The position numbers were made by a program, and so were the translations under genes. Below are positions 20,242 through 36,760 of a DNA stretch of 36,910 bases, piece by piece. A model generated the notes under the pieces. That model did not search any database, had not been told where the DNA came from, and saw only the letters and a program-made list of their open reading frames with translations. Each line of letters begins with the position of its first letter. The stretch's first letter is position 1. The DNA is taken from the NCBI GenBank assembly GCA_016281125.1, contig JAEEIA010000047.1, positions 1 to 36,910 of the forward strand. Direction: 5' to 3'. Source of the stretch: Oscillospiraceae bacterium (GTDB lineage Bacteria; Bacillota; Clostridia; Oscillospirales; Ruminococcaceae).

Positions 20242-20258
20242 TATGCTGTGGTCGGCGG

Positions 20259-22883
20259 TTATGCTTTGCCGCCTCTGCGCTGGAATGCCTTGACGCATTC
20301 CACAGTCGGAACAATCGCGGCAGCCAGCAAGATTGCGTACAATACCTGCATCCCGTTCAGCTGCACGAGTGAGAATACATTGCGCAGACCCGGGATAAAC
20401 ACCAGCGGGATGGTCAGCACAAAGGATACGAGCACAGAGCCCAGCAGGAAAGTGTTGCCGTGCTTCATTGTGAATACGGAACCTTTCAGGCTGCGCATAT
20501 TCCATGCATGGAGCATCTCACAGACGGCCAGCGTGATGAACGCCATGGTTGTTCCGGCTTCGGGAGAGGTTCGGTGACCGATCATGTAAGAGGCGAGCGT
20601 CAGTGCCGCAATGACAAAGCCCTGCCACAGCAGGTTGATGCCAAGGCCGTCCGAGAAGATGTGCGAGCCGCTGCTTCTGGGCTTGCGCTTCATGATGCCC
20701 TCCTCGGCGGCCTCCATGCCGAGGCCGACAGCCGGGAAGCAGTCGGAAACCAGATTGATCCACAACAGGTGAACCGGGCTGAATATGCTCTTTCCGCCGC
20801 CGATGGCCAGCGTTGCCATGAGAATGCAGAGCACCTCGCTCAGATTGCTGGAGAGCAGGAACTGAATTGCCTTGCGGATGTTGTCATAGATGCGGCGGCC
20901 TTCTTCCACCGCGCCGACGATTGTTGCGAAGTTGTCGTCGGTCAGCACCATATCGGCAACATTTTTGGTGACGTCCGTGCCGGTGATGCCCATGCCGACA
21001 CCGATGTCCGCGCTCTTGATCGACGGTGCGTCGTTGACGCCGTCGCCGGTCATGGCGGTTGTCATGCCTTTCTTTCGCCATGCATTGACGATGCGAACCT
21101 TATGCTCCGGCTGCACGCGTGCATAGACGCTGTATTTCTCAACCGTTTCGTCAAACTCGGCATCCGGGATTTTGGAGAGCTCCGCGCCGGTCAGAGCCTG
21201 CTGTCCCTCACCGAGGATGCCGAGCTCCCTGGCGATAGCGACCGCGGTGTCGCGGTGGTCGCCGGTGATCATCACAGGACGGATGCCTGCGGTGCGGCAA
21301 AGTCCGATTGCGTCCTTGACCTCCGGACGAACCGGGTCGATCATGCCGGTCATGCCGATGTAAATGAGCTCCTCCTCCAGCGATTCGGGAGAAATATCGG
21401 CAGGCAGCTTGCTGTATTCGCGGTAAGCGGCCAGCAGCACGCGCAGCGCCTGATCCGCCATTTCCTTATTTTGGCGCAGAATTTCCTTGCGGTCGGTTTC
21501 CGTCATGGAGCGCACCTTTCCGCCGTCGAGGATATAGCAGCAGCGGCGGAGTACCTCGTCCGGTGCGCCCTTCGTATACTGAATGAAGCCGTCCGCGGTC
21601 TGATGCACCGTGGACATCATCTTGCGGAGCGAATCAAACGGCGCTTCGGCCACTCTGGGTGCTTCTGCTTCCAGTTCATATTTTTTCAGGCCGTTTTTGT
21701 TTGCGTATACAACCAGTGCGGCCTCTGTCGGCTCACCGGTGACGGATTCGTCCGGATTGAGCACGGCATCGCAGCAGAGCGCCATGGCCTTTGCAAGCAT
21801 CTGCTTGTCAGCAGTGTTCTCCTGCACGACGGTCATTTTATTCTGCGTCAGCGTACCGGTCTTGTCACTGCAAATGACCTGTGCGCAGCCGAGTGCCTCG
21901 ACGGCGGTCAGCCGTCTGATGACGGCGCCGCGCTTTGACATGTTCGTCACGCCGATGCTCAGCACGACGGTCACGACCGCAGCCAGCCCCTCCGGGATTG
22001 CAGCAACGGCCAGACTGACGGCAACCATAAAGGATTCCAGGAATCCGGGCAGCGTGACCGAACCGTTCCGCACGAGCATCTGAATCACGTTGAGGCCGAG
22101 GATGAACACGCAGATGCACAGCACGGCAACCGAAAGGATTTTGCTGAGCTGATCGAGATTCTTTTGCAGCGGCGTTTCGTCGTCGTCCGCCTCCGTAATG
22201 GCACCTGCGATTTTGCCCATTTCTGTCTGCATGCCGGTTGCAACGACAACGGCTTCTGCACGGCCGTATGCGACGCTGCTGCCCATGTACAGCATATTCT
22301 TTCTGTCACCGAGCGGTACCTCCTCGCCGGAGAGGACTGCGCTGTCCTTTTCGGTCGGGACGCTTTCGCCGGTCAGCGCGGATTCTTCGGCTTTCAGCGA
22401 GGCGGCCTCCAGAATGCGGCAGTCTGCCGGAATGTTGTCACCGGCTTCCAGGGTGATGACGTCACCGGGCACGAGCTCAGAGCTGTGGATGACGACCAGT
22501 TCCCCGGAGCGGTAGACTTTGCTGTTGGCGGCGCTCATCGCCTGGAGCGCCTCAATCGCGGATTCCGCCTTGTTTTCCTGATAAACGCCGAGCACCGCGT
22601 TGGCGAGGACGACGAACAGGATGATGAAGACATCCGCGTCCAGCTTTCCTTCTGAAATGATGCCGGTGATCGCGGAAACGACTGCTGCGGCAATCAGCAC
22701 AAGAATCATCGGGTTTTTGAACTGCGCAAGGAACCGCTGCATCAGTGTCGGCTTCGGCGGTTCGTCGAGCTTGTTGGCACCAAATTCGGTGAGCCGGCGT
22801 GCAGCCTCCTCAGAGGTCAGTCCGCCTGCGCTGCTGTTGACCTCCTCCAGAACCTTTTCGGCAGATACAAGATAGTGTTTCAT
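20259..22883 (-). CDS. P-type calcium-transporting ATPase (PMCA/SERCA-like)
   Basis: 874 aa from the ATG at 22883, chosen for AGGAGG just upstream; the upstream in-frame extension is noncoding-like. Order of features: cation-ATPase N-terminal domain, two transmembrane helices (around 60-105), actuator domain with ALTGESVPTEKD, helices 3-4 containing AIPEGLAA (the calcium-coordinating M4 motif), phosphorylation site D340 in CSDKTGTLTQNKM, nucleotide domain with KGAPDEVLRRC, hinge GDGVNDAPSIKSADIGVGMG, and six C-terminal helices. It pumps Ca2+ out of the cytoplasm using ATP. Transcribed alone. A link to calcium supply for dockerin folding is an attractive idea but only an inference from neighbours. 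Confidence 0.93.
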   Translation of the reverse strand: MKHYLVSAEKVLEEVNSSAGGLTSEEAARRLTEFGANKLDEPPKPTLMQRFLAQFKNPMILVLIAAAVVSAITGIISEGKLDADVFIILFVVLANAVLGVYQENKAESAIEALQAMSAANSKVYRSGELVVIHSSELVPGDVITLEAGDNIPADCRILEAASLKAEESALTGESVPTEKDSAVLSGEEVPLGDRKNMLYMGSSVAYGRAEAVVVATGMQTEMGKIAGAITEADDDETPLQKNLDQLSKILSVAVLCICVFILGLNVIQMLVRNGSVTLPGFLESFMVAVSLAVAAIPEGLAAVVTVVLSIGVTNMSKRGAVIRRLTAVEALGCAQVICSDKTGTLTQNKMTVVQENTADKQMLAKAMALCCDAVLNPDESVTGEPTEAALVVYANKNGLKKYELEAEAPRVAEAPFDSLRKMMSTVHQTADGFIQYTKGAPDEVLRRCCYILDGGKVRSMTETDRKEILRQNKEMADQALRVLLAAYREYSKLPADISPESLEEELIYIGMTGMIDPVRPEVKDAIGLCRTAGIRPVMITGDHRDTAVAIARELGILGEGQQALTGAELSKIPDAEFDETVEKYSVYARVQPEHKVRIVNAWRKKGMTTAMTGDGVNDAPSIKSADIGVGMGITGTDVTKNVADMVLTDDNFATIVGAVEEGRRIYDNIRKAIQFLLSSNLSEVLCILMATLAIGGGKSIFSPVHLLWINLVSDCFPAVGLGMEAAEEGIMKRKPRSSGSHIFSDGLGINLLWQGFVIAALTLASYMIGHRTSPEAGTTMAFITLAVCEMLHAWNMRSLKGSVFTMKHGNTFLLGSVLVSFVLTIPLVFIPGLRNVFSLVQLNGMQVLYAILLAAAIVPTVECVKAFQRRGGKA

Positions 22884-22917
22884 GGTATCCTCCTGATCAC
22901 AATATTCTAAACAATTT

Positions 22918-22946
22918 ATTATACCATTGTACAGATAGAAAAGCAA
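22918..22946 (-). promoter_or_regulatory. Promoter of the Ca2+-ATPase gene
   Basis: On the minus strand TTGCTT (22946-22941), 17 bp, TATAAT (22923-22918); the start codon is 35 nt downstream. Confidence 0.65.
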
Positions 22947-23136
22947 GATATTCTCTGTGTCCAAAAGATGAAAGTGAAGTGATAAATCTGTGAACAGTGT
23001 TGCTTGCATCCGTCAATTACCGCTGAAAAGTGCGCTTTGTTCCGTATGCAGGCATGCTGTTTTTCATACATCTGCGCGGCGAATCTCCGCAAATCGTGAA
23101 AGATGCTGTATTTTTTGCGGATTCAGGGATAAGCAC

Positions 23137-23165
23137 TTGATTTCTTGCGGAAATAATGGTATAAT
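23137..23165 (+). promoter_or_regulatory. Promoter of the NifU-like/GGGtGRT operon
   Basis: TTGATT (23137-23142), 17 bp, TATAAT (23160-23165), 95 nt before the first ATG. Between 22947 and 23136 I see no gene. Confidence 0.75.
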
Positions 23166-23260
23166 AGGAAAAGCGGTGTCCGATCCGGTCAGTGCTCCGA
23201 CGATCCGGCCGCCGAAATCAATCAATTTTTCTCGCTTTAATGCCAGAAAGGAGTATTTGA

Positions 23261-23953
23261 ATGATCTATTCGCACGAAGTAGAAACGATGTGCCCGATCG
23301 CACAGGGCGTCGCACACGGCGCGGCTCCGATCCCGGAGGAAGCCAAGTGGGTAAAGGCTAAGGAGATTAAGGATATTTCCGGCTTTACGCACGGTGTGGG
23401 CTGGTGCGCTCCGCAGCAGGGTACATGTAAGCTGACGCTCAATGTCAAAGAGGGCGTGATCCAGGAGTGCCTCGTTGAAACGATCGGCTGCTCCGGTATG
23501 ACCCATTCCGCTGCAATGGCTTCTGAGATTCTGCCCGGCAGAACGATTCTGGAAGCACTGAATACGGACCTCGTCTGCGATGCGATTAACACTGCTATGA
23601 GAGAGCTGTTCCTCCAGATCGTGTACGGCCGTTCGCAGTCTGCCTTCTCCGAGGGCGGTCTGGTTGTCGGCGCCGGCCTTGAGGATCTCGGCAAGGGTCT
23701 GCGTTCGCAGGTCGGTACCATGTACGGTACGCTCGCAAAGGGTCCGCGTTACCTCGAAATGACTGACGGCTATGTCACAGGCCTCGCTCTGAACGAGTAC
23801 GATGAGATCATCGGTTATAAATTCGTCAACTTCGGTAAGATGATGGACTTCATTAAGGCTGGCGATGATGCCAACACCGCATTTGAGAAGGCACAGGGTC
23901 AGTACGGCCGTGTCGCGGATGCAGTGAAGATCGTTGATCCGAGAAAGGAATAA
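23261..23953 (+). CDS. NifU/IscU-like iron-sulfur scaffold-type protein
   Basis: 230 aa; AAAGGAG 8 nt before the ATG. The segment ETIGCSGMTHSAAMASEILPG followed by RTILEAL matches the second Cys region of IscU/NifU scaffold proteins, and further conserved-looking Cys are C11, C49, C56, C70 and C77. It is longer than IscU (about 130 aa), with a C-terminal extension containing DEIIGYKFVNFGKMMDF. It is probably a cytoplasmic Fe-S-binding protein working with the protein encoded 13 nt downstream; the pair recurs in Clostridia, from memory, and no biochemical role is established. Confidence 0.75.
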   Translation: MIYSHEVETMCPIAQGVAHGAAPIPEEAKWVKAKEIKDISGFTHGVGWCAPQQGTCKLTLNVKEGVIQECLVETIGCSGMTHSAAMASEILPGRTILEALNTDLVCDAINTAMRELFLQIVYGRSQSAFSEGGLVVGAGLEDLGKGLRSQVGTMYGTLAKGPRYLEMTDGYVTGLALNEYDEIIGYKFVNFGKMMDFIKAGDDANTAFEKAQGQYGRVADAVKIVDPRKE

Positions 23954-23966
23954 GGAGGTTTGTTCA

Positions 23967-24965
23967 ATGGCATTGTTTGAATCGTATGAAAGACGTGAGA
24001 AGCAGATCCTCGCTGTGATCAAGGAATACGGCATCAACTCCATCGAGGAGTGCGCCGATGTCTGCAAGGCAAAGGGTCTGGATATCTACAAGCTGGTCGA
24101 GGGCATTCAGCCGATCTGCTTTGAGAATGCAAAGTGGGCTTATACCGTCGGTTGTGCTATCGCAATCAAGAAGGGATGTACCAGAGCTGCCGATGCTGCT
24201 GCTGCAATCGGTGAGGGACTTCAGGCATTCTGCATCCCGGGCTCTGTTGCTGACCAGAGAAAGGTCGGTCTCGGCCACGGCAACCTCGGCAAGATGCTGC
24301 TTGAGGAGGAAACTGAGTGCTTCGCATTCCTCGCAGGTCACGAGTCCTTCGCTGCTGCTGAGGGTGCAATCGGTATTGCGGAAAAGGCCAACAAGGTTCG
24401 CAAGAAGCCGCTCCGTGTCATTCTGAACGGTCTTGGCAAGGACGCTGCACAGATCATCGCAAGAATTAACGGCTTCACCTATGTTGAAACCGAGATGAAC
24501 TATCAGACCGGCGAGGTCAAGGAAGTATTCCGCAAGGCATATTCCGACGGCCTGCGCGCAAAGGTCAACTGCTACGGCGCAAACGACGTCGTTGAGGGCG
24601 TTGCAATCATGTGGAAGGAAAACGTCGATGTTTCCATCACCGGCAACTCCACCAACCCGACCCGTTTCCAGCATCCGGTTGCCGGCACCTATAAGAAGGA
24701 GCGCACCGATGCAGGCAAGAAGTACTTCTCTGTCGCATCCGGCGGCGGTACCGGCCGTACCCTGCACCCGGACAACATGGCAGCAGGTCCTGCTTCCTAC
24801 GGCATGACCGATACCATGGGCAGAATGCATTCCGATGCACAGTTCGCAGGTTCCTCCTCCGTTCCGGCTCACGTTGAGATGATGGGTCTGATCGGCATGG
24901 GCAACAACCCGATGGTAGGTGCTACCGTTGCTTGCGCTGTTGCTGTTGAAGAGGCTATGAAATAA
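23967..24965 (+). CDS. GGGtGRT-family protein
   Basis: 332 aa, ATG at 23967 with AAGGAGG ahead of it. It contains the family-defining GGGTGRT at 259-265, in SVASGGGTGRTLHPDNMA, and MGMGNNPMVG-like glycine-rich C-terminal segment (GLIGMGNNPMVGATVACAV). The family (named for this motif) has no proven function. Codon usage is strongly biased to preferred codons compared with neighbours, suggesting high expression. Cotranscribed with the NifU-like gene; a terminator follows. Confidence 0.9.
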   Translation: MALFESYERREKQILAVIKEYGINSIEECADVCKAKGLDIYKLVEGIQPICFENAKWAYTVGCAIAIKKGCTRAADAAAAIGEGLQAFCIPGSVADQRKVGLGHGNLGKMLLEEETECFAFLAGHESFAAAEGAIGIAEKANKVRKKPLRVILNGLGKDAAQIIARINGFTYVETEMNYQTGEVKEVFRKAYSDGLRAKVNCYGANDVVEGVAIMWKENVDVSITGNSTNPTRFQHPVAGTYKKERTDAGKKYFSVASGGGTGRTLHPDNMAAGPASYGMTDTMGRMHSDAQFAGSSSVPAHVEMMGLIGMGNNPMVGATVACAVAVEEAMK

Positions 24966-24996
24966 GCTGAAAACAGCGTAAATTCGTTTATATGAG

Positions 24997-25035
24997 AAAT
25001 CCCGGCTGACTTTGCGGTTTGCCGGGATTTTGCTT
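24997..25035 (+). terminator. Terminator after the GGGtGRT gene
   Basis: AAATCCCGGC (24997-25006) / GCCGGGATTT (25021-25030), followed by TGCTTTTTG. Confidence 0.8.
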
Positions 25036-25205
25036 TTTGATGCGAAAACAGCGATTTGTCACCCGAAATCTGAGGTGGAATGACAGGGTGGGTGACAAAA
25101 ATGAATTCGCTGAGCTTTGCTATCAAATATCTACAGCGTGTCGAAGCCTTATTATCATGACACATATTCTAATTGTCAGTAATAAGGCATTGAGGTGGAT
25201 ATATT

Positions 25206-25390
25206 AGAGCGGGGCTTGCCCCCTCTCTTTTGTGTGCAGTAAGCTAAAGCAACAACTAAACAAACGTATTTACGCTGTTTTTTGATCTTAGGAAGAGAAA
25301 GACTCGGAAACTCTCTAGCATACTGCAAAATCGCCGTAAATTCGTACTTTCTGCAGAATCTATTTTGAAGCGTGTGCGATTTCGTGTGCA
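25206..25390 (+). repeat. Dispersed repeat, copy 1 of 3
   Basis: It starts with a terminator-like hairpin (AGAG-x-GGGG/CCCC-x-CTCT then TTTT, 25206-25231) with no gene of its own on the plus strand, and ends with GTGCGATTTCGTGTG at 25374-25388. In between it shares GAAA.CTCTCTAGCAT-type and GTAAA blocks with copies 2 and 3. Read on the minus strand it gives LHTKSHTLQ..., similar to the other copies. The flanking sequence 25040-25205 holds only an imperfect GTCACCC/GGGTGAC repeat. Confidence 0.6.
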
Positions 25391-25490
25391 GAAAATTGAG
25401 CGCCGCCAAGGGCAATGATCAGCCCATCCTGTCAATCAGACATTGAAAAAGATCTCCGTATCACTTCTTGTTTCGATACGTCAAAAGCCA

Positions 25491-25516
25491 GACGCCCTCA
25501 GATCACTGAGGGCGTC
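25491..25516 (-). terminator. Terminator of the LRR/dockerin gene
   Basis: GACGCCCTCA (25491-25500) pairs with TGAGGGCGTC (25507-25516); on the minus strand a TGGCTTTTGAC stretch follows. Confidence 0.7.
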
Positions 25517-25554
25517 ATGCATTCTATCAGGATGATCGCAGCTGCCGGACGATC

Positions 25555-27216
25555 TTACTCGGCGTTCGTAATTGCTTCAAATGTTTTGTCGTATTCTTTC
25601 GCATAGTTTTCCGCTGTCGAGCCTGCATAGCCGCGGATCACCTGACATGAATACGTTTCAAAGCAATCCCTAGCAAGTTGGCAGTTTTTATTCAGTACCG
25701 TAACAGTTTCCAGCGCGTCACAGCAGGCGAATGCAGCTTCACCGATGCTGGTGACACTTTCCGGGATCGTGACAGAAGACAGCGCTTGGCAGTAGAAAAA
25801 CGCATGATTCCCGATATTTGTGACACCGTCCGAGATTGTAACGGAAGTCAGAGTTTCACAGTCAGCAAATGCCCATTCACCGATGTTTGTAACGCTGCCG
25901 GGAATCGTAACGGAGGTCAGAGCAATACAGTTGTAAAACGCATTTGAACCGATTTCAGTGACACTGTCCGGAATCGTTACGGATGTCAGAGATTCGCAGT
26001 ATGCAAATGCCTGTTCACCAATGCTGGTAACACGCTCCGGAATCGTGACAGAAGACAGCGCTTGGCAGTAGTAAAACGCATAATTTCCAATGCTCGTGAC
26101 ACTGTCAGGAATCGTGACAGAAGTCAGAGATCCACAGCCGAAAAATGCCCGTTTACCGATACTTGCCGCATTTGCCGAGATCCTGACGGATTCCAGTGCG
26201 CCGCATTCCTCGAATACGCGATCGCCGATGCTGGTGACACTATCAGGAATCGTGACAGAGGTCAATGCGGAACAGCTGTAAAACGCTAGCTCACCGATGC
26301 TGGTCACACTGTCGGGGATCGTAATAGATGTCAGCGCTTTGCAGTAGGCAAATGCTTCGTCACCGATATCGGTGACACTGCCGGGAATCGTGACAGATGT
26401 CAGAGCATCGCAATCACAAAATGCAGAATCGCTGATGCAGATGATACTGTCAGGAAGCGTCACAGAACGCAGATTGGTACAGGCGGCAAATGCACTGTCA
26501 CCGATACTGGTTACACTGTCTGGGATCGTGACAGAGGCAAGATTGTAACAGCTGGAAAATGCGTTTTTACCAATACTTGTTACACTGTTCGGAATCGAAA
26601 CAGATGTCAGATTGGGGCAATGTGTAAATGAATGATCACCGATGCTGGTGATTCCTTCCTTGATCACAATTTTTTTGATATTATTGACTTTCGAAACCCA
26701 CGGCACCTGATATTCCGCGCGTGAGAAGTTGTATTCCCAGTTTTTCATCCTGCCCGTGCCGGAGATCGTCAGCGTACCGTCCTTGTCGAGCGTCCATTGG
26801 AGATCCTTTCCGCAGGTCTGAAGAATTGAATCCCATGTTATATCCTTGCCTGCGACAATCTTTTCTGTATAGTATCTGAGGATAGACTGCGCATCATCGA
26901 CGGACAATTCTTGATCACCATTGACATTTGCTGCCATGATCTGGCGTTCAGATAAGCCCGTTTCAAGGCCGGCAATCCGCTTGGTATATGCTTTCAGAGC
27001 AAGCTGGGCGTCTACAACACTGATTTCGCCGTCACCGTTTACATCCCCGGCCAGAACTTCCGGTTCGGACAACGTGGTATCTGCTGCTGTATCTGCTGTG
27101 GTATGTACGCTCCTGATGCTCATATCAGAGACGGTCTGCTGCGAAACTCCGCAGTAACTTACGTTTTGCATCATCATTGCAGCGGTCATGAGTGCGATCA
27201 TTGTTTTACGGTACAT
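25555..27216 (-). CDS. Secreted LRR_5 (BspA-like) protein with N-terminal dockerin
   Basis: 553 aa from ATG 27216 (MYRKTMIALM), with AGGAAGGG just upstream. Signal peptide about 1-25. A dockerin directly follows at about 57-130: DVNGDGEISVVDAQLALKAY and ANVNGDQELSVDDAQSIL, then VAGKDITWDSIL. Residues 135-175 carry a TLTISGTGRMKNWEY segment. From about 175 to 530 come roughly fifteen 23-residue leucine-rich repeats of the BspA (LRR_5) type, consensus LTSVTIPDSVTSIGxxAFxxC, and a closing STAENYAKEYDKTF cap. Such repeats form an extended solenoid used for protein or surface binding. There is no catalytic domain. Likely docks on a cohesin and serves as an adhesin or recognition module. Confidence 0.9.
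   Translation of the reverse strand: MYRKTMIALMTAAMMMQNVSYCGVSQQTVSDMSIRSVHTTADTAADTTLSEPEVLAGDVNGDGEISVVDAQLALKAYTKRIAGLETGLSERQIMAANVNGDQELSVDDAQSILRYYTEKIVAGKDITWDSILQTCGKDLQWTLDKDGTLTISGTGRMKNWEYNFSRAEYQVPWVSKVNNIKKIVIKEGITSIGDHSFTHCPNLTSVSIPNSVTSIGKNAFSSCYNLASVTIPDSVTSIGDSAFAACTNLRSVTLPDSIICISDSAFCDCDALTSVTIPGSVTDIGDEAFAYCKALTSITIPDSVTSIGELAFYSCSALTSVTIPDSVTSIGDRVFEECGALESVRISANAASIGKRAFFGCGSLTSVTIPDSVTSIGNYAFYYCQALSSVTIPERVTSIGEQAFAYCESLTSVTIPDSVTEIGSNAFYNCIALTSVTIPGSVTNIGEWAFADCETLTSVTISDGVTNIGNHAFFYCQALSSVTIPESVTSIGEAAFACCDALETVTVLNKNCQLARDCFETYSCQVIRGYAGSTAENYAKEYDKTFEAITNAE
25720..26650 (-). repeat. Tandem 69-bp coding repeats in the LRR gene
   Basis: About thirteen units of 69 bp (23 codons) with high nucleotide identity, e.g. 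the recurring GTCACCAGCAT..., ATCGTGACAG, GAACGCATTT words on the minus strand. The near-identity in DNA, not just in protein, makes slippage or unequal recombination likely. Boundaries are approximate. Confidence 0.7.
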
Positions 27217-27329
27217 AAGAACCCTTCCTTTCGTCACTTTAATGGTGTTAGAATTTGAAGCTCAGCTTTCCGGGATGCCAAAACAGTACTGTTCCTTTCC
27301 ATTCTCAGGTCCTGCCTGATAATATCCTC

Positions 27330-27358
27330 AGTATAGCAGGTTTGACGGACATTTGCAA
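27330..27358 (-). promoter_or_regulatory. Promoter of the LRR/dockerin gene
   Basis: On the minus strand TTGCAA (27358-27353), 17 bp, TATACT (27335-27330), about 115 nt before the ATG. The interval 27359-27609 to the next element holds no gene that I can support. Confidence 0.6.
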
Positions 27359-27609
27359 TGCGCAGCAAAACCAGCTACCCTGTTTATTTGAAAGAAATCC
27401 ATGTTTTTCTCTTGATTCCTTTCATTTTCTTTCATTTCCAAACTTTCACGCAACTGCAGCGAAACAGCACGATTTGCCTGTAAATACGTACAATACATAT
27501 GTATTTGTATATGATTGCATCTGAAGCAGGGAAAAGGGCATAAAGTATCTTGTTGGGGAAATGCAGAATCTTCAGCTTGATTCAAAGGAACATGTTATTG
27601 ATGAAAGCG

Positions 27610-27839
27610 AATGCCTGGCGGTTGCCGGGCATTTCGCTTTCCATTTTATCACGATTTATTTTGCTTTTGTATTCCGATAATTGAAAAAACTTCCGATGTA
27701 AGATAGAGAGCAATTTGAAATCTCTCTAGTTTGATATAAAAGCATTATAAATGTGTGCTTTCTAAGGCGCTGATTTCAAGGCGCGTGCGATTTCGTGTGA
27801 AGTAAAAAGAGCAGTATGCTGTTGCCATGCTGCTCTTTT
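27610..27839 (+). repeat. Dispersed repeat, copy 2 of 3, with orphan terminators
   Basis: Begins with hairpin AATGCCTGGC (27610-27619) / GCCGGGCATT (27624-27633) then TTCGCTT, almost identical to the terminator at 31982; ends with GTGCGATTTCGTGTG (27785-27799), followed by a 14-bp perfect stem (27805-27818/27826-27839). No gene on either strand ends here, since the flanking LRR genes diverge, so both hairpins are orphans. The distance from the first hairpin to the GTGCGATTTCGTGTG word is 175 bp here and 176 bp in copy 3. Confidence 0.65.
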
Positions 27840-27925
27840 CTGTTCCTGATGATGAAAGGATACAATTTATATTATAGATATGCATAAACCGGCGTAAACG
27901 GCAGAGAACCAATTTGCAAAAATGA

Positions 27926-27954
27926 TTGACAAAGCAGTGCTTTCGTGATATAAT
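27926..27954 (+). promoter_or_regulatory. Sigma-A promoter of the large LRR/dockerin gene
   Basis: TTGACA (27926-27931), 17 bp, TATAAT (27949-27954), about 85 nt before the ATG. Confidence 0.85.
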
Positions 27955-28039
27955 AAAAATAGATTGCACAGAGTGCACATGCTTTTGTGCACTTTGCGGA
28001 CCACCCGGAATATGTTTTGCTTTGGAAAGGAGTTGTGCG

Positions 28040-31000
28040 ATGATGAAACCGAAACGAATCCTCACTTTGCTGACAGCTGCGGGAATGTGCCTTGCGAACA
28101 TTCCGCTTGCGCCGGCGGTCATGCCGGCAACCGTCCTGACGGCAAGCGCGGCTGAAACGACCGATCGGGGGCTAAAGTACGAGATAACGGACGGGAAAAT
28201 ATGCATTACCGGTCATACAGATGACCTACCCGCCGAAGTAGTGATTCCCGCTGTGATCGGGGGCGTGCCCGTGACAGGCATCGGCGATAATGCATTCAGT
28301 TGGTGCGAGAAGCTGACAAGCGTTACCCTTCCGGACAGCCTGACACGCATCGGCGTCGGTGCCTTTGCGGGTTGCACGCATCTGACAGGCATCACGATTC
28401 CGAAAAACGTGACAAGCATCGCGTCTGCGGCACTGTTCAACTACTGCGATGCGCTGCGCTCGATTGAGGTAGATCCGGATAATACAGCCTACGCTTCTGC
28501 GGACGGTGTATTATTCAGCAAGGATCTGACGCAGCTTCTGCGGTATCCGATCGGGAAAGGCGGAACGCAGTACTGTGTTCCGGAAAGTGTGACCTCGATC
28601 TATTCGTATGCGTTCTCAAAATGCAAAAGTCTGACAGACATCACGGTTCCGGAAAGTGTAACAAGCATAGGAAAGGGTGCGTTTGATGCATGTACCGGGC
28701 TGACAGGCTTCACCATTCCGTCCGGTGTGACAGAAATCAGCGAGTTCATTCTTGCCAACTGCTCCGGTCTGACAAGCATTACCATTCCGGACGGTGTAAC
28801 AAGCATCGGGGAGGCTGCGTTCGCAAGCACCGCTGTGACCGCGCTCAGCCTTCCGGCAAGCGTCACCTCACTCGATGTCGGCATACTCTTCAATACCGGG
28901 TTCACCTCCATTACGGTGAATCCGGAGAATCCGGTATATTGCTCTGTGGACGGCATTGTATTCAGCAAGGATATGACCCAACTGGTGTGTTTCCCGGAGG
29001 CATATGCGGAAACCGAATACACGATTCCGGACACTGTGACCGAGATCTGCGACGAAGCCTTCAACCTGTGTGATCTGGCTTCCGTCATTATTCCGGACGG
29101 CGTTGAGATTATCGGCGATCACGCCTTCTCGCACTGCTCGGAAATCGTTTCGCTCGATCTTCCGGACAGCGTGACTGTAATCCGCGACGCTGCGTTCTGC
29201 GGGTGCAGCGCATTGCAGCATGTCACCATGCCGCCGGAGTTAGACGAAATGGGCGAGGCTGTGTTTGCTCTCTGCCCCGATTTGCGGCATGTTGAGCTGC
29301 CGCAAAACCTGACCGGCATTCCCGATGAAACATTCGATCATGCAGAAAAGCTCAAAGACTTTTTGATTCCTGAGTCAGTGAAAACAATCGGATTTGCAGC
29401 CTTTGATCTCTGCAATTCCCTGAAGCATATCACGATTTCCGCAAACGTATCGAAAATCCGAGAAGCTGCATTTCATAACTGCCGGGCAATGAAATACGCA
29501 GTCGTGATGAACCCGGACTGCGAATTCTATCCTGAGGACACCATTTTCAACGAAGGAACAGTGATTTACGGGCATCCCGGCTCCACGGCGCAGACCTATG
29601 CCGAAACCTACGGCTTCCCGTTTGAGGATCTGGCAAACCTGCCGGAGGAAAGAACATCCGGCGGCATGATCTATACGATTGAAAACGGCAAAGTCACCAT
29701 CACTGACTATACGAATGATCTGCCCGCAGAGCTGGTCATCCCGGCAGAAATCGACGGCATGCCCGTCACATGCATCGGCGGCAGCGCGTTTACCAACTGC
29801 ACTGCGCTGACCGGTGTGATGGTTCCGGACAGCGTGACAAGCATCGGGGAATATGCGTTTTCCGGCTGCTCCGCGCTGAAAAGCATCACAATTCCGGATA
29901 CCGTGACCGAAATCGGTATTGATGCATTCTCCAAGTGCGATCATCTGACAATTTATGCGAGTTCAGGCTCATTTGCGGAGAATTACGCAGATGAGAACGG
30001 CATCGCGTTTGAAGTGCCGGGCGTTGCTGAACAGCTTGTACTGGACAGCATAACGTATTCCGAAGAAAACGGCGCTGTCACCATCACCGGATTTACCGAC
30101 GGCATTCCCGCAGATCTGGTCATTCCCGCAGAGATCAACGGTATGCCTGTGAAAAGCATCGGCGAGCGCGCATTTGACATGTGCGATACGCTGACGAGCG
30201 TTGTGCTTCCGGACAGTGTGACAACCATCAGCGATTCTGCATTTGAAAGCTGCACCGCGCTGAAAAGCATCACAGTGCCGGACAGCGTGTCGCGCATCGG
30301 CGACTATGCGTTTTACGATTGCCCGAGCCTGACGAGCTTCAAAATTCCGGACGGCGTGACTTCCATCGGCCGGTTTACATTCTACGGCGGCATAGCGCTG
30401 GCCAGCATTACCATTCCGGAAAGCGTGACAAGCATCGGCAATTATGCGTTTGACAACTGCACCAATCTCACAATCTGCGGCAGCACAGGCTCCTATGCGG
30501 AAACCTACGCCAAGAAGAACAATATCCCGTTTGAAGCACCGAAACCGGAATACAAGGTTTATCAGGGAATGAAATACATGACCGAAGACGGCGGCGTAAT
30601 CCTCACCGGTTTTACCGATGACCTGCCTGCCGTGCTGACCATTCCCGCAGAAATCGACGGAAAGCCCGTGACCGGCTTTGCGCAGTTTGCATTTGCACAG
30701 TGCGACAAGCTGAAAGAAGTCACGCTGCCGGATTCCCTGACATCGTTCGGCATGCAGACTTTCTGGGGCTGCAAGAATCTGGAAAAGGTCACGCTGCCCG
30801 CCAAGCTGAAAAATGTATATGAAGCAGCCTTCGCGCAGTGTACCTCTCTGAAATCTGTCACCATCCCGGACGGCTGCGAAACAATCGGAGATCTGGTGTT
30901 CTCCGGCTGCACTGCGCTCAGTGAGGTCAATATACCAGCATCCGTTCAGAATTTCTATGAGCCTGCATTCTCCGGGACGCCCTGGCTTGCCGCACAGCAG

Positions 31001-31969
31001 GCGAAAAATCCGCTTGTTTCCGTCAATGGGATCCTGATTGACGCTTCGGCTGCTTCCGGCGAAGTAACCGTTCCGGACGGCGTCAAGGTCATCAATCCAT
31101 ATGCGTTCATGGACTGTGACACGATCACAAAGATCACTCTGCCGGAGAGCGTTGCACAGATAGACGGAATCGGCAGTGCTGCGCTGACGGACGTCACGAT
31201 TCTGAATCCGGAATGTGTGATCAAGGATGATGCGGGAACGATTACCAACGGCTATGACGACAAGGCCGGAAAGGCGACCTTCCGCGGTACAATCCGCTGC
31301 TATGATGGTTCCACAGCGCAGGCATATGCAAAGAAATACGAATACAAATTCGAGGCACTGAAAGAAGCAGTCCAGACAACAACAACTGCTGCGAAAGCCA
31401 CTACTACAACGTTACAAGTGACCACCACGACGGTCAAAGCGACCAACACAACCACCAAAGCTATCACTACAACAGCGAAGGCGACCACCACGACGGCAAA
31501 AGCGACTACAACAACAGCGAAGGCGACCACCACGACGGCAAAAGCGACTACAACAACAGCTAAGGAAACAACCACAACTGCCAAGGCAACGACCACGGCA
31601 GCGCCGGGCACCACGACGATTCCGACAGAAACGACGCCTACCGTGACGACCTCGGCCGCCCCTGCGCCGCTGCGCGGTGACATAAACGATGACGGCGAGG
31701 TCAGTGTCGATGATGCACAGCTGACGCTGAAAGCATACACCAAGCGGGTCGCGGGTCTTGACATGGAGCTGACGGAACGGCAGATTCAAGCTGCAAATGT
31801 CAACGGCGATGCGGAACTGTCTGTCGATGACGCGCAGAATATTCTGAAATATTATACGCAGAAAACAGTCGCAGGTAAGGATATCACATGGGAGGATATT
31901 CTGGGGAACAAAACGAAGAAACTGCCGCGAGTGATCAAAAAGCGAATCTTATCTTTCTATAAGAATTGA
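28040..31969 (+). CDS. Large secreted LRR_5 (BspA-like) protein with C-terminal dockerin
   Basis: 1309 aa; the ATG at 28040 has AAAGGAG 7 nt ahead. Signal peptide about 1-37. Four modules follow, each starting with a beta-strand header of the type ENGKVTITDYTNDLPAELVI then PAEIDGMPV: about 38, 543, 670 and 843. Each header is followed by 23-residue LRR_5 repeats; some modules end in a GSTAQTYAETY-like cap. Residues about 1115-1210 are a Thr/Ala/Lys linker (TTTTAKATTTTAKA), and 1213-1285 a dockerin (GDINDDGEVSVDDAQ and ANVNGDAELSVDDAQNILKYY, then VAGKDITWEDIL), ending in a basic tail (KLPRVIKKRIL). No catalytic residues seen. Likely a cellulosome-borne binding protein. Confidence 0.92.
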   Translation: MMKPKRILTLLTAAGMCLANIPLAPAVMPATVLTASAAETTDRGLKYEITDGKICITGHTDDLPAEVVIPAVIGGVPVTGIGDNAFSWCEKLTSVTLPDSLTRIGVGAFAGCTHLTGITIPKNVTSIASAALFNYCDALRSIEVDPDNTAYASADGVLFSKDLTQLLRYPIGKGGTQYCVPESVTSIYSYAFSKCKSLTDITVPESVTSIGKGAFDACTGLTGFTIPSGVTEISEFILANCSGLTSITIPDGVTSIGEAAFASTAVTALSLPASVTSLDVGILFNTGFTSITVNPENPVYCSVDGIVFSKDMTQLVCFPEAYAETEYTIPDTVTEICDEAFNLCDLASVIIPDGVEIIGDHAFSHCSEIVSLDLPDSVTVIRDAAFCGCSALQHVTMPPELDEMGEAVFALCPDLRHVELPQNLTGIPDETFDHAEKLKDFLIPESVKTIGFAAFDLCNSLKHITISANVSKIREAAFHNCRAMKYAVVMNPDCEFYPEDTIFNEGTVIYGHPGSTAQTYAETYGFPFEDLANLPEERTSGGMIYTIENGKVTITDYTNDLPAELVIPAEIDGMPVTCIGGSAFTNCTALTGVMVPDSVTSIGEYAFSGCSALKSITIPDTVTEIGIDAFSKCDHLTIYASSGSFAENYADENGIAFEVPGVAEQLVLDSITYSEENGAVTITGFTDGIPADLVIPAEINGMPVKSIGERAFDMCDTLTSVVLPDSVTTISDSAFESCTALKSITVPDSVSRIGDYAFYDCPSLTSFKIPDGVTSIGRFTFYGGIALASITIPESVTSIGNYAFDNCTNLTICGSTGSYAETYAKKNNIPFEAPKPEYKVYQGMKYMTEDGGVILTGFTDDLPAVLTIPAEIDGKPVTGFAQFAFAQCDKLKEVTLPDSLTSFGMQTFWGCKNLEKVTLPAKLKNVYEAAFAQCTSLKSVTIPDGCETIGDLVFSGCTALSEVNIPASVQNFYEPAFSGTPWLAAQQAKNPLVSVNGILIDASAASGEVTVPDGVKVINPYAFMDCDTITKITLPESVAQIDGIGSAALTDVTILNPECVIKDDAGTITNGYDDKAGKATFRGTIRCYDGSTAQAYAKKYEYKFEALKEAVQTTTTAAKATTTTLQVTTTTVKATNTTTKAITTTAKATTTTAKATTTTAKATTTTAKATTTTAKETTTTAKATTTAAPGTTTIPTETTPTVTTSAAPAPLRGDINDDGEVSVDDAQLTLKAYTKRVAGLDMELTERQIQAANVNGDAELSVDDAQNILKYYTQKTVAGKDITWEDILGNKTKKLPRVIKKRILSFYKN
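31373..31660 (+). repeat. Low-complexity Thr-linker coding repeats
   Basis: Repeated ACxACx codons for Thr/Ala/Lys, with several exact 33-bp-scale internal duplications around 31475-31560. The same linker type is encoded on the minus strand around 32600-32870. Confidence 0.65.
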
Positions 31970-31981
31970 AGTGATATAGTG

Positions 31982-32174
31982 AATGCCCGGCGGTTGCCGG
32001 GCATTTCGCTTATCAGTTTTCTCCGATTTGCCATGCTTTTATTTTTCGATATTTGAAATGAATTTCCGAATTGGGAAAGAGAATGATTCGAAAGCCCTCT
32101 AGCATGATACAAAAGAATCGTAAAAGCGCACTTTTCATGGTTGCTTTTTTGAGACGTGTGCGATTTCGTGTGCA
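31982..32174 (+). repeat. Dispersed repeat, copy 3 of 3, starting with a terminator
   Basis: Starts with AATGCCCGGC (31982-31991) / GCCGGGCATT (31996-32005) and TTTCGCTT, which is also the rho-independent terminator of the large LRR gene 13 nt upstream, and ends with the word GTGCGATTTCGTGTG (32158-32172). Shares CCCTCTAGCATGATACAAAA-like text with copies 1 and 2. Read on minus it gives SLHTKSHTSQKSNHEKC. Confidence 0.65.
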
Positions 32175-32181
32175 ATGAAAT

Positions 32182-32213
32182 AAGCACCGTCTGAGTTCGA
32201 TCAGACGGTGCTT
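32182..32213. terminator. Terminator of the DUF285 gene
   Basis: AAGCACCGTCTGA (32182-32194) / TCAGACGGTGCTT (32201-32213), a perfect 13-bp stem. On the minus strand it follows the DUF285 stop codon by 64 nt and is trailed by ATTTC. Confidence 0.7.
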
Positions 32214-32277
32214 GGGTATTAGAATGTTATCTTGCTGAAGAAAATGTTTCTTTTAAGCAAGTCAATTCAGAAGCAGA

Positions 32278-35200
32278 TCAGATAATCTCTCTGCGCTTCA
32301 GCATAGCCGGATGCGGCTGTGCCTGCGGCTTTTTTCCGAGAATATCCTCCCATGTGATATCCTTACCTGCGACTGTTTTCTGCGTATAATATTTCAGAAT
32401 ATTCTGCGCGTCATCGACAGACAGTTCCGCGTCTTCATTGACATCGGCTGCAAGGATCTGGCGCTCTGTCAGTCCCATGTCTATGCCGGCAACCCGTCGG
32501 GTATAGGCTTTCAGCGCCAGCTGTGCGTCCTCAACACTGACTTGGCCATCGAGGTTCACGTCGCCGCGGAGCGGGGCGGGCTCGGCAGAGGTCGTAACAA
32601 TCGGAGTCGTTTCAGTCGGTGTCACGGTGGTAACTGGTGCTGTTGTAGTCGTTGCGATTGCCGTTGTGGTTGCAGCCTTAGCAGTTGTGGTGGTCGCCTT
32701 AGGGAGTATGGTGGTTACCTTTGCAGTTGTAGTGGTCACCTTCGCGGGTGTGGTGGTTGTCTTGGCAGTTGTGGCAGTCTCTTTTGCCGTTATTGTAGTT
32801 GCTTTTGCTGTTGTTGTGGTAACCTCGGCGATTGTTGTCGTTGTCTTTGCCGTTGTTGTGGTGGTTACAGGCGGAGCAACCGTATTTTTGCCGGTAAAGT
32901 AACCGGGTGCGGCAGCGGTGTCAATGCGTGCATAGTCACCGTCAAGATGTGCTGTGCTGAATGCAGTTCCGTTTCCTCCGACAATCGACGTACAGTCTCT
33001 GAACATGTTTTTGAAATTCATACTCGCAGTCTGTTCTGAAATATCCCATTTATCAGAAACATAGACTGTTTTTAGTTTCTCACAGCCGTAAAACAGGTCT
33101 CTGGCGGAAATCAGGGAAACGGTGTCAAACGCAGAAAGGTCGATCGACTCCAGTTCCAGACAGTAGCAGAACATGCTGGCAATGCTGCTAACCTTTGAAA
33201 TATCAATTCCGGTAAAATTGACACTGCTCAGGGAATTGCACTTATAAAATACTGTGTTTATCTTGGTAAGTTTCGGCGCATTAATATTGGAAAGATCTGC
33301 TGTTTTCAGCGCCGGACTTTTTTCAAACAAATTGCTCATGGAATCCAGATTCGGCAGATTCATACCGGACAGATTTGCAGAAGTCAGGTTACTGCACTCT
33401 GAGCAGATCCGATCCATGGTCTTAAGGTTCGGAAAAGAACATCCGGAAAGATCCAGTGTTTCCAGTCCGGATCCAGAGAAAAGGGCGTTGATGGTTTCGA
33501 CTGAAGAAAGATCCAGCTTGGAAAGGTCTGCCGATTTCAACGCTGCGCACCCGCTGAACATCGAGCTCATGTCCTTCACGCGGGAGGTATCCCATGCATC
33601 AAGTCCACTGATTTCTTCCAGAGATTTGCATTGACCGAAAAAGCTGCTTATATCCGTGACATTTTCCATGTCCAGATCTGCAAGTCCCTTGATGTCTTTC
33701 AGGGATCCACAGTTCAAGAACAGACCATTCATTTCTGTCGCATTCGGCGTACCGATGCCGGTCAGATCAACAGTTTCGAGCGCGCTGCAGCTTAAAAACA
33801 ATGTTCCGAAGTCCGTGGTGCCGGAAAACTCCAGACCGGAAAGATTAACTGTTTTCAGGTTCTTACAGCCATAGAACATCGAGCGGCAATCATTTACACC
33901 GGATGCATCCGCCTTGGAAAGATCAATGGATTCCGCCGTAAAATCCTTGAACAGTTCATAGCATTTCTCCGGAAGGATCGTGCCTTCTGCCGCAACAACA
34001 GATTTGACAGCTTCATTCTTCGCATAATCCGTGATATCAAGGTTATAGTACGGGAAGTGGAACTGCCAGTCGTAAGGCGTGAAATCGCCGAAAATCGTCA
34101 GAACACCGGTTTCTTCATCCAGCTCTGTACCGAATGCCGGTTCAGGCGGCTGCACAGAACCGTCTCCAAGCGTCAGATAACCGGGCGTCTCAGTGCTGTC
34201 GATCCGGAACATATCCATTTTGCAGGATTCGGCATCAAATGCCGTTCCGTTTCCGCCGGTCAGCTTTTCGCAGTCGGAGAAGACAAAGGCGCTGCGGAAA
34301 ACATTGCTGACGCCGTCGCTCTGTGCGGTCAGTCTGTCGTAGATCCAGTTATCGGAAACATAAATCTTTTCCAGAGCCTTGCATCCGGCAAACATTTTGG
34401 TAATATCGCAGTTTCTGTGCTGCGTCTGAACAAAGCTGCTGAGATCCAGTTCTGTCAGCGCGGCACAGTCCATAAACATTCCGCTCATCAGCGTTACATG
34501 TCTGGTATCGAAATGTGAAACATCAATGGATTTTAAGTTCTTACAGTATGTAAACATATACTGTATCGTGTTTGCTCTCGGCGTGCGGAAAGAACTGATG
34601 TCAACCGTTTCCAGCAGTTCACAGCCTTTGAACATGCAGTCAAAATCGCTTGCATAGTTCGTATCAAAATTGTGAAGATCCAGCGCAGTCAGCAGAACGC
34701 AGTCCTCAAACATGCCGTCAAACGTATCTGCTTTTGCTGTATCAAAATTCGACACGTTCAGCGATGTCAGCGATTTGCAGCATCTGAACATGCTGTTAAA
34801 CGCCACAACATTTTCTGTGTTGAACATGGAAACATCCAGTGACGCAAGCTTTTCGCAATTATAAAAGGCAGAGCCCATATCCGTGACTTTGGATGTATTA
34901 AAGCCGGAAAGATTGAGCGAAACCATGTTTTTGCAGTCCTGGAACATCTGCCGCATGCTCGTAACATACGAAGTATCCGCATTGGACAGATCAATCTCCT
35001 CTGCCTGCATCTGCGAGAACATTTCTCTGCAGTCCGGCGGAAGAACCGTACCTGCCGAGGCAATGATCTTTTTGACTGCATTATTTTTTCTGTACTGCGC
35101 AACATGCGAAAAATTGACCTTCCCGGAAAGCGTCAGCGTGCCGGTCGCTTCATCAAATGCCACGTCGGTAATCGGCGGCGGCGTCAGACTGCCGGCAGCA

Positions 35201-36300: not shown

Positions 36301-36370
36301 TTTTTCCTCCTTATGATGTGCATGGTTTGATGTCAGTTGTATACCGTACTCAGGAAAGTATACTTTAGTT

Positions 36371-36399
36371 ATTATACCATAACAGACTATTGATTTCAA
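36371..36399 (-). promoter_or_regulatory. Promoter of the DUF285 gene
   Basis: On the minus strand TTGAAA (36399-36394), 17 bp, TATAAT (36376-36371); about 70 nt before the ATG. Confidence 0.75.
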
Positions 36400-36539
36400 G
36401 CGTGTTTTTGCATAAAGAAGCATCACATATTCAATGACTAAACATATAAAACAGCAATCATTCCCCAAGCCGCCCCGCATCCCAAATGCTCATGCGGTCT
36501 TCGGATTCGGATGCCGTCAACTGTAAAGGAGATAAGAGT

Positions 36540-36623
36540 ATGAAGAAGCGTTTCAGTCACAGCAGCAGCAAACTACCATCCTACGACGGTTTTGAAAAGC
36601 CTGTATCGAAAAGTCAGCGATAA
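36540..36623 (+). CDS. 27-aa basic peptide, possibly frameshifted fragment
   Basis: ATG at 36540 with AAAGGAG 8 nt upstream. The peptide MKKRFSHSSSKLPSYDGFEK then stops at 36621-36623. In the adjacent frame the sequence continues open as SLYRKVSDKEKKAVRPGTKW and a few more residues up to a stop near 36670, so a single-base shift around 36600 would give a protein of about 43 aa. No family recognised; low confidence that it is translated. Confidence 0.35.
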   Translation: MKKRFSHSSSKLPSYDGFEKPVSKSQR

Positions 36624-36736
36624 AGAAAAGAAGGCAGTCAGACCGGGTACAAAGTGGCATCATATGATGCTGATCTAAAAGAAAAGTTCGTCTTTAAAGG
36701 TATGCGTCAAATAATCAACGTCCCATAGTAAAGCAT

Positions 36737-36760
36737 CAGGCTCACCGCGAGGTGAGCCTG
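36737..36760 (+). terminator. Hairpin terminator near the right edge
   Basis: CAGGCTCACC (36737-36746) / GGTGAGCCTG (36751-36760) with a GCGA loop. The nearest T-run is only at 36789, after a small GCG/CGC stem, so it may act with that. Confidence 0.5.

Follow-up and report, generated by a model that had tools for sequence, protein, structure and literature searches.

The window, by which we mean the whole analysed stretch of 36,910 nucleotides, raises the question of what the short repeats are that lie, all in one orientation, around its genes for LRR and dockerin proteins. A preliminary description had taken them for three copies of an element of about 190 bp, and offered that they may be cassette borders, a recombination or attachment site, or a degenerate coding fragment such as an integrase 3' end. 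Here we set out the anatomy of these sites, their relatives in other genomes and the units that lie between them, and we weigh the explanations that this evidence bears on.

Three sites in the window and their relatives

The three plus-strand copies lie where they had been placed. On both strands of the window, the 15-mer GTGCGATTTCGTGTG has just three exact occurrences, with start positions 25374, 27785 and 32158 (Table 1). Copies 2 and 3 are indeed near full-length versions of the described element, copy 2 aligning to positions 1-191 of the 193 of copy 3 with 79% identity across 81 bp of the left part. Copy 1, however, shares only the right ~105 bp (match 25293-25390; model positions 87-193), leaving the left part homologous between copies 2 and 3 only and the right half common to all three. 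Likewise, the terminator-like hairpin described at the left is present in every copy, but in copy 1 its sequence is different from that in copies 2 and 3. The hairpin-to-word distances of 175 and 176 bp given for copies 2 and 3 agree with the coordinates, and the two orphan terminators ascribed to copy 2 correspond to two hairpins at places where, judging by sequence and open reading frames, no gene is likely to end. The left side of copy 1 recurs in three contigs of other genomes (G028:C411, G025:C169 and G004:C44); the view that it is ordinary chromosomal sequence following the GGGtGRT gene was weakened by this occurrence in other surroundings.

Table 1. Positions of the sites and cassettes in the window
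Feature	Positions	Strand	Description
Site 1 left side, type B	25206..25289	+	Hairpin GCGGGGCTTGCCCCC, lone GTGTGCAGT at 25232-25240, ACGTATTTACG; no relation to the type A left parts
Site 1 core-like segment	25290..25318	+	AGGAAGAGAAAGACTCGGAAACTCTCTAG
Site 1 arm	25371..25392	+	CGTGTGCGATTTCGTGTGCAGA
Cassette 1	25393..27605		One gene, 25555-27237 (-): LRR (BspA type) protein, weak dockerin match
Site 2 left part, type A	27606..27700	+	Hairpin TGCCTGGCGGTTGCCGGGCA, then TTCCGATAATTGAAAA
Site 2 core-like segment	27701..27729	+	AGATAGAGAGCAATTTGAAATCTCTCTAG
Site 2 arm	27782..27803	+	CGCGTGCGATTTCGTGTGAAGT; hairpin at ~27808-27840 after the arm
Cassette 2	27804..31977		One gene ending at 31969 (+): LRR protein, ~1309-1347 aa depending on start
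Site 3 left part, type A	31978..32073	+	Hairpin TGCCCGGCGGTTGCCGGGCA, then TTTCGATATTTGAAA
Site 3 core-like segment	32074..32102	+	GGAAAGAGAATGATTCGAAAGCCCTCTAG
Site 3 arm	32155..32176	+	CGTGTGCGATTTCGTGTGCAAT; hairpin at ~32184-32215 after the arm
Cassette 3, cut by contig end	32177..36910		Gene 32278-36480 (-): DUF285/LRR protein, weak dockerin match

Copy 3 has 13 matches across the genome, part of them only partial, and when up to 2 mismatches are allowed the 15-mer is found 21 times versus 5 for its reversed control. Further copies, on whose presence in related genomes the cassette reading had been made to depend, were found: the consensus of the shared half matched 12 of the 30 genomes of the genus (own genome included), and 7 of the 30 at E below 1e-12. 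Another search matched 13 of the 30, where at least G002, G003, G010 and G021 match the hairpin only. Our alignment of sites has 28 rows, a few of which are not true copies, and the counts given below refer to 20 or 21 sites. In a family survey the arm pattern appeared in 2 of 297 genomes, both from this genus, and copy 3 gave no match in phage and plasmid collections. Of the 18 stretches given by the exact 19-mer, 9 belong to unrelated groups, a larger number than chance would lead us to expect, and the weak model matches there cover little beyond the arm. The titles and abstract openings that we searched, a scope outside which subscription journals mostly fall, held no description of these sites.

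Anatomy of the shared half

Judged from its sequence, the shared half looks like a tyrosine-integrase attachment site, with a core that resembles the 3' end of tRNA-Ser(GGA) and a direct-repeat arm (CGTGTGCGATTTCGTGTGCAGT). The array core is similar to GCGGAAAGAGAGGGATTCGAA, the reverse complement of the tRNA-Ser(GGA) 3' end at G000:C6; identity with this 3' end is complete in L111, G028:C243 and G029:C38, while the array cores are close to it but differ, and the only places in G000 that come within 2 mismatches of the core are the tRNA itself and the C28 site. Arm-type direct repeats stand at a fixed distance from the core in all 20 array copies, at 69 bp in 16 of them and at 68-71 bp in 20 of 20. 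These distances were taken from the alignment and are unaffected by a core anchor that is off by 16 bp at three sites (G000_C95_1, G000_C87 and G008_C46_2), where it touches the core, P and spacer identities. Identity averages 0.91 across the arm and 0.65 across the spacer, whose length is still nearly fixed, and such a conserved arm, with its spacing kept within 3 bp despite the divergent spacer, suggests continuing constraint.

A coding role for the shared half was rejected on the frame counts and codon-position counts in 20 copies. Its minus frames are open across 35 codons in 12, 1 and 9 of the 20 copies, without clear codon periodicity, and the minus-strand LHTKSH start that had been read in the window copies, though present, is the arm motif in one frame. 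The idea of a degenerate integrase 3' end was not upheld either, for the sequence has no coding look and resembles instead the non-coding region that adjoins integrase 3' ends. Nor does the shared half look like structured RNA. Regulatory RNA genes or promoters between surface-protein genes, to which the hairpins flanking sites 2 and 3 on both sides, some of them with T-rich tails, might point, are very improbable given that the consensus fold of 20 copies reached -2.38 kcal/mol, its covariation term being 0.07, that RNA folding of stretches with the shared half was no better than that of shuffles (z 0.20, -0.36 and -0.33), and that an Rfam scan of window positions 20000-36910 yielded nothing above the gathering score. 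Against structured RNA also stand the single-strand DNA folds of the three window sites, which were inconsistent across both strands (z -1.78 to 1.23 in six folds, the lowest at site 2). This folding, proposed at the outset as a check, gave no consistent attC-like fold on either strand of the three sites.

Sites of comparable build, with a tRNA-like core and repeats in a helical register similar to that of the arrays, are present at integrase loci of the genus and in three viral contigs, and the integrases linked to them are tyrosine recombinases. In the integrase-bearing loci G028:C243 and G029:C38, the exact tRNA-Ser(GGA) core lies near the integrase stop. At seven integrase loci, which were chosen from 12 for having CGTGTG between core and stop, this motif stands 56-59 from the core in all seven and again at 67-70 in five. 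Of the ten island loci that possess a core, L147, L156 and L170 lack CGTGTG in the interval up to the stop, two of these three carrying GTGGGAACT repeats in its place; L144 and L161 have no such core. In the three viral contigs CGTGTG lies 47 and 59 from the core. Six of the seven viral relatives were read, and arms similar to the array arm were seen at these three of the six integrase loci, where both L200 arms and one of the L201 arms match GTGTGCRATTTCGTGTGCAGT exactly. Relative to the core, the viral contigs have their integrase on the hairpin side and the genus islands on the arm side.

The arrays themselves carried no integrase-like ORF at any of 22 array or site loci when ORFs of at least 60 aa were scanned; the same scan detected one at L101, which is an island locus, and at each of five controls. 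The genome holds 12 PF00589 matches, and at none of the 12 loci of G000's own integrases was the arm pattern found. A large serine recombinase beside one G008:C30 site was considered as the missing integrase and rejected, being seen at this single site only. Intact tRNAs were not seen next to any array site, an absence that broken contigs make weak evidence. Taken alone, an attachment-site origin of the sites is, we believe, highly likely.

Arrays, cargo and shared cassettes

The proposal that the copies act as cassette borders agrees with the layout of the arrays, in which neighbouring sites, some of them partial, lie head-to-tail in 12 of 13 pairs and so bound, in the same orientation, both ends of units of 1.3-8.1 kb, as in CIMEs. 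The site positions behind the pair counts and the identity ranks were entered by hand, and the pair count leaves out the G013:C60 array, a 99.9% duplicate of G015:C21, while it includes partial or weak sites (the third of G008:C46, G015:C21, G000:C95 and G000:C11, and the first of G015:C21 and G001:C33). That the element travels with surface-protein genes proved too narrow a description: LRR and dockerin genes are part of the cargo, but so are two-component, zinc-ribbon, transporter and Cas1e/Cas2e genes. An enrichment of dockerins in the cassettes was not supported, because dockerin matches in the genome number at least 150 (308 candidates, 150 scored, 150 matched), or about 1 per 26 kb, and dockerins near the sites are to be expected anyway. 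Such rows of cassettes with mixed cargo between one-orientation sites recall a true integron, whose attC-like sites would be recombined by IntI, but we find this hardly credible, as the core is tRNA-like and followed by a direct-repeat arm, the three window sites lack a consistent single-strand fold on either strand, and cassettes carry genes on both strands, often several.

Two pairs of cassettes are shared between genomes. A cassette in G000:C11 and one in G001:C33 are 97.3% identical over 3,968 bp, as compared with 78% for the ATPase gene of the same genomes, and their neighbours differ; G008:C46 and G013:C38 share 94% over 3,222 bp and 86% over 1,915 bp. From these alignments, at least one cassette appears to have moved between species. 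The earlier suggestion of a recombination or attachment site is supported by this cassette in differing company as well as by the tRNA-3'-end-like core, the arm at fixed distance and the similar anatomy beside integrases.

Two right ends of shared stretches fall at +26 (24-29) and +27 (6-61) from the core start. In a one-breakpoint scan, which is rough and in which the pair G000_C28/G025_C73 reflects a common IS-like sequence, the breakpoint of the second pair came out at -15, that of c1/G028 at +99 and those of three others at +73, -83 and -111; only 2 of 7 are thus on the core's right side. On the left, both shared cassettes seem to end close to the arm and not at the core. The core-arm spacers of these two pairs have identities of 0.75 and 0.67 (ranks 9 and 67 of 190) versus 94-97% for the cargo, and spacer plus core reach 0.73 and 0.71 (ranks 28 and 56), while three sites with different neighbouring cassettes have spacers that are 0.88-0.92 identical (ranks 1-2 of 190). 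By these comparisons, the spacer does not travel with the cargo, and a single crossover point fails to explain the pattern.

Two other explanations draw on this shuffling. If the 105-bp right half were a small MITE-like mobile element that inserted repeatedly, its joining to three or more left sides that bear no relation to one another (types A, B and C) and to several unrelated right sides, and a spacer that seemingly moves independently of both flanks, would fit; this is improbable, however, with an anatomy and spacing that resemble integrase-linked attachment sites, neighbouring sites that lie head-to-tail, a left side that varies between copies and no terminal inverted repeats visible by eye. 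Somewhat unlikely, but to be taken more seriously, is that the sites are inert relics, attachment sites that decayed after old integrations, and that the present shuffling is homologous recombination or gene conversion between repeats. The conserved arm and fixed spacing around a divergent spacer argue against relics, as do the two right ends that fall at the core; for them speak the lack of an integrase across the scanned loci, the difference of the array cores from the tRNA core, the part of the breakpoints that lies away from the core, and the shuffling of the spacer independently of cargo, as gene conversion would produce.

A possible route for cassette traffic and its known counterparts

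We propose that each site is a phage-type P-O-P' site, in which O would be the tRNA-Ser(GGA) 3'-end-like core and P' the side arm, a putative integrase-binding repeat at fixed distance. The sites would then be junctions in a row of small islands, inserted in tandem, from which an integrase gene was lost or was absent from the start, and an integrase provided in trans, from a related island or phage of like core-arm geometry, would insert and excise cassettes at O, whereby arrays could grow, shrink and exchange cargo between species. The anatomy, the spacing, the head-to-tail order, the lack of an integrase at the scanned loci and one cassette in differing company are observed; we infer that an integrase acts on the sites, that O is the point of strand exchange and that the arrays are still active. 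The simplest form of the proposal sits uneasily with a spacer that is not carried along with the cargo, with arrays that have no tRNA alongside and with dockerin genes that show no special association. Array cores unlike the tRNA core, G000 integrase loci devoid of the arm pattern and island loci lacking CGTGTG count against the proposal as well. As a whole, the statement that these are tandem, integrase-less, att-bounded islands mobilised in trans seems to us probable, with some reserve, since the islands used to measure distances had been chosen, the viral integrase lies on the other side of the core and the relic explanation shares the same evidence. More tentatively, and on balance doubtfully, the genus may have turned phage-type att sites into reusable, integron-like cassette junctions that have no integrase of their own and are served in trans by phage or island integrases that target tRNAs, with the spacer separately shuffled and surface, sensor and defence genes moved between species.

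The host bacterium is a relative of rumen cellulose degraders, and its rows of small cassettes resemble an integron that is seemingly based on tRNA-targeting integration. If active, the arrays would offer dockerin-rich gut bacteria a route to trade single surface-protein, sensor or defence genes across species, and they would allow one to test, on a natural example, how ordinary tRNA-targeting integration can give rise to an integron-like array. The succession of core, 69 bp and arm gives a simple mark by which such cassettes can be mapped in metagenomes.

Among known systems, integrons consist of cassettes with similar sites between them, all oriented alike, an outline which the arrays share, although site anatomy and cassette content differ. 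CIMEs are att-flanked DNA without an integrase of their own, mobilised by the integrase of a partner, and ICEs and IMEs accrete in tandem; the units described here are likewise att-bounded and without integrase but, unlike CIMEs, they are repeated, measure 1.3-8.1 kb and have no integrase-bearing partner visible in the arrays. The ssrA-specific islands of Dehalococcoides are reported to be tandem and bounded by a direct repeat of an RNA-gene 3' end, with conservation beyond the repeat in an 84-bp alignment, accessory cargo, and integration genes in 16 of 31 islands (PMC3146451). Tandem arrangement, repeats resembling an RNA-gene 3' end and accessory cargo are common to both. Their integrase, as given there, is a serine recombinase and their repeats lie downstream of ssrA itself (PMC3146451), whereas here tyrosine recombinases are linked to the sites, arrays were not seen beside the tRNA and 0 of 22 loci had an integrase. 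Tycheposons, according to two reports, have tRNA borders, a tyrosine recombinase and cargo, and span 4-200 kbp (PMC11389934, PMC10872708); our units are mostly smaller or near the lower end of this range, and no recombinase was found in them. Similar in growing additively at recurring tRNA-3'-end repeats and in their variable cargo are the additive flexible genomic islands of Methylophilaceae, where the mark is reported as a recurring 20-bp tRNA-Lys repeat (PMC10872708), whereas here ~105 bp of core, spacer and arm stand at each full junction.

Three plus-strand sites and their conserved blocks

As read from the sequence, the LRR/dockerin-like genes of the window are bordered by three plus-strand sites, each composed of a left hairpin, a core, a spacer and a CGTGTG-bearing arm. 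Alignment showed that the right half, some 105 bp long, is common to all three, while the left part with its hairpin is common to sites 2 and 3 and the left side of site 1 is different; the window contains three exact copies of the right-hand 15-mer, all on the plus strand. Mean pairwise identity was 0.91 for the ATTCGAAA block and for the 22-base arm and 0.68 overall, and the observed autocorrelation exceeded that of every one of 2,000 column permutations, indicating conservation in blocks. The core-arm spacer has an identity of only 0.65 and an almost fixed length: from core to CGTGTG we counted 69 in 16 of 20 array sites, 68 in two, 70 in one and 71 in one.

Coordinates of the sites and associated features
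Feature	Location	Position	Strand
Site 1	window	25206-25390	plus
Site 2	window	27610-27800	plus
Site 3	window	31982-32174	plus
Inverted repeat of AAAACAGCGTAAATTCGTTT motif	window	24970-24989 / 25262-25281	
IS-like sequence GTATGCGTCAAATAATCAACG...	window (contig end)	36699-36910	
tRNA-Ser(GGA) gene	G000:C6	4420-4509	
Inspected tRNA-Ser(GGA) locus	L069 (G000:C6)	4292-4509	
Cas1e + Cas2e genes	L073 (G008:C46)	12515-13845	
Large serine recombinase gene	L075 (G008:C30)	607-2301	minus
GTGTGATTTCGTGTG near tRNA-Lys	L071	1717-1944	
GTGTGATTTCGTGTG near tRNA-Trp	L067	4844-5060	

The preliminary description had offered a degenerate coding fragment or a recombination or attachment site; the feature proved real, and the right class was among these options. 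Tried as coding sequence, the shared half displayed no clear codon periodicity, with minus frames open in 12, 1 and 9 of the 20 copies. Its consensus fold as structured RNA was negligible, the RNA folding of stretches holding it resembled that of shuffles, and Rfam returned no matches over gathering; as a folded DNA single strand, both strands gave inconsistent results (z -1.78 to 1.23).

Two further observations concern the window. A 20-base inverted repeat (95%) lies 3' of the GGGtGRT gene, and its AAAACAGCGTAAATTCGTTT motif resembles the spacer motif CGTAAATNCGT. At the contig end, the GTATGCGTCAAATAATCAACG sequence, which we guess to be an IS and which may have caused the assembly break, was also found after sites in G000:C28 (G000 being the source genome) and G025:C73.

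A tRNA-like core in the sites and in integrase loci

Read in reverse complement, the first conserved block is similar to the 3' end of a tRNA. In G000, the gene for tRNA-Ser(GGA) ends in GGGTTCGAATCCCTCTCTTTCCGC, and one locus of the genus (L111, G028:C68) carries GCGGAAAGAGAGGGATTCGAA, the exact complement of that end, followed by an array-type right half. Among 19 intact tRNA-Ser(GGA) loci, one per genome, with hairpins judged by eye, 14 had a downstream hairpin of the type found beside integrase-locus cores, one was doubtful (G020) and four had a different hairpin (G005, G017, G022, G024); the gene therefore appears to be a hot spot of integration that is occupied.

A PF00589 integrase fragment beside the arm of a viral contig (L118), used as query, found matches in 17 of the 30 genomes of the genus. 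Inspection of the 3' ends of 12 of these integrase loci revealed the order hairpin, tRNA-3'-end-like core, integrase stop in ten (not in L161 and L144), with CGTGTG repeats between core and stop in seven of the ten (not in L147, L156 and L170); the cores of G028:C243 and G029:C38 are exactly the tRNA-Ser(GGA) core. Seven viral relatives were fetched and six inspected, and in three (L200, L201, L202) the hairpin and tRNA-like core are flanked on both sides by arms that equal or closely resemble the array arm. Viral contigs and genus islands thus have the order hairpin-core-arm in common but differ in where the integrase sits: in the former it is found to the hairpin side of the core, in the latter to the opposite side. 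CGTGTG stands 56-59 from the core in all seven islands that bear it, and again at 67-70 in five, and at 47 and 59 in all three viral contigs; such steps of about one helical turn would fit related proteins on one DNA architecture. Two results do not fit this picture: matching arms were absent from all 12 integrase loci in G000 itself, and no array adjoining a tRNA gene has been found so far.

Among ORFs of at least 60 aa in 22 array or site loci, a model search found none resembling an integrase. It recovered the integrase of one island locus (L101) and those of five control loci, of which two had been part of the model. In one instance, the gene immediately right of an array site (G008:C30) encodes a large serine recombinase and occupies the position that the integrase has in genus islands.

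Cassette arrays, their distribution and sharing

Neighbouring sites on one contig share their orientation in 12 of 13 pairs, the sole exception being two G008:C30 sites 36 kb from each other, and the 12 same-orientation units measure 1,303 to 8,147 bp, with genes on both strands. Cargo in or beside the arrays comprises LRR and dockerin proteins, a histidine kinase with response regulator, zinc-ribbon proteins, chromate and ArsP-type transporters, Cas1e and Cas2e genes inside a cassette and a type IV restriction enzyme, the last lying on the left side of the G000:C28 site. Dockerin enrichment was not supported: G000 has at least 150 dockerin matches, and among those listed one falls within its closed cassettes (23.3 kb in all), which is about chance level, the weak matches of the window genes (22.5 and 19.9 bits) standing outside that list.

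Using copy 3 as query we found 13 places in G000 and matches in 13 of the 30 genomes of the genus, G000 included, several being the hairpin alone. The shared-half consensus matched 12 of the 30, seven of them at E below 1e-12 (G000, G001, G008, G013, G015, G025, G028). Allowing up to two mismatches, the arm pattern occurred in 2 of 297 genomes sampled from the family, both of this genus, and in none of the 292 genomes of other genera. The exact 19-mer arm CGTGTGCGATTTCGTGTGC appeared in 18 stretches in a collection of 84,980 species: nine belong to records with Oscillospiraceae, Clostridiales or Ruminococcus in the title (sheep rumen or goat omasum is named in three), and nine to unrelated groups (L102-L104, L109, L112-L116), which is more than expected in random sequence and where weak model matches span little beyond the arm. 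Separately, the tRNA-Lys and tRNA-Trp genes each have GTGTGATTTCGTGTG some 130-150 bp away from their 3' ends, and such arms may therefore also act at further tRNA sites.

The cassette between the first two G000:C11 sites has a counterpart in G001:C33 with 97.3% identity along 3,968 bp, compared with 78% over 2.6 kb for an ATPase gene of these genomes, a thin baseline of one gene. Mis-binning is unlikely here, since each cassette is embedded in a long contig (119 kb and 60 kb, respectively) and no similarity was detected in the outer flanks. A G008:C46/G013:C38 cassette (94% over 3,222 bp and 86% over 1,915 bp; left sides differ) and a G000:C87/G008:C46 stretch (88.6% over 1,174 bp up to the core; right sides differ) are not clearly above the level of the more conserved GGGtGRT gene, which was 88-93% identical in eight pairs measured, none with G001. 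Of 14 loci 3' of that gene, two have a site (G000 and G028, with different first cassettes) and 11 have none within 420 bases read by eye, G013 being unreadable. A 6-kb array stretch is 99.9% identical between G013:C60 and G015:C21 (L077 versus L078-L079), where the GGGtGRT gene is 90% identical, reflecting either a recent transfer or a mis-binned contig.

Were exchange to occur at the core alone, the spacer would be expected to travel with the cargo on its right. Spacer identity was 0.75 and 0.67 in the two shared cassettes with testable left ends (overall mean 0.65), and 0.88-0.92 in three sites with different neighbouring cassettes; a parallel comparison gave similar results. Since the spacer does not travel with the cargo, shared stretches seem to end at the arm on the left, and at the core (+26, +27) on the right; a one-breakpoint scan placed five of seven pairs elsewhere (-15, +99, +73, -111, -83). 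The spacer pattern would be accounted for if sites underwent gene conversion with one another, limited to their homologous stretch.

Relation to known tandem islands

No description of these sites was found in the literature, as covered by titles and abstract openings, mostly outside subscription journals. Tandem islands at RNA-gene ends are already known: according to excerpts of PMC3146451, Dehalococcoides carries several tandem islands whose borders are ssrA or its 20-bp repeat, with extra conservation in an 84-bp alignment and an integration module in 16 of 31 islands, and an excerpt of PMC10872708 describes an additive Methylophilaceae island marked by recurrent 20-bp tRNA-Lys repeats. 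We conclude that the sites probably represent a variant within the known class of att-bounded tandem islands, with putative mobility. The Dehalococcoides ssrA islands are the nearest published case compared; relative to both cases, as far as these excerpts describe them, the present arrays consist of small units with no tRNA gene seen next to them, no integrase was found in the arrays, and core, spacer and arm are kept at each full junction.
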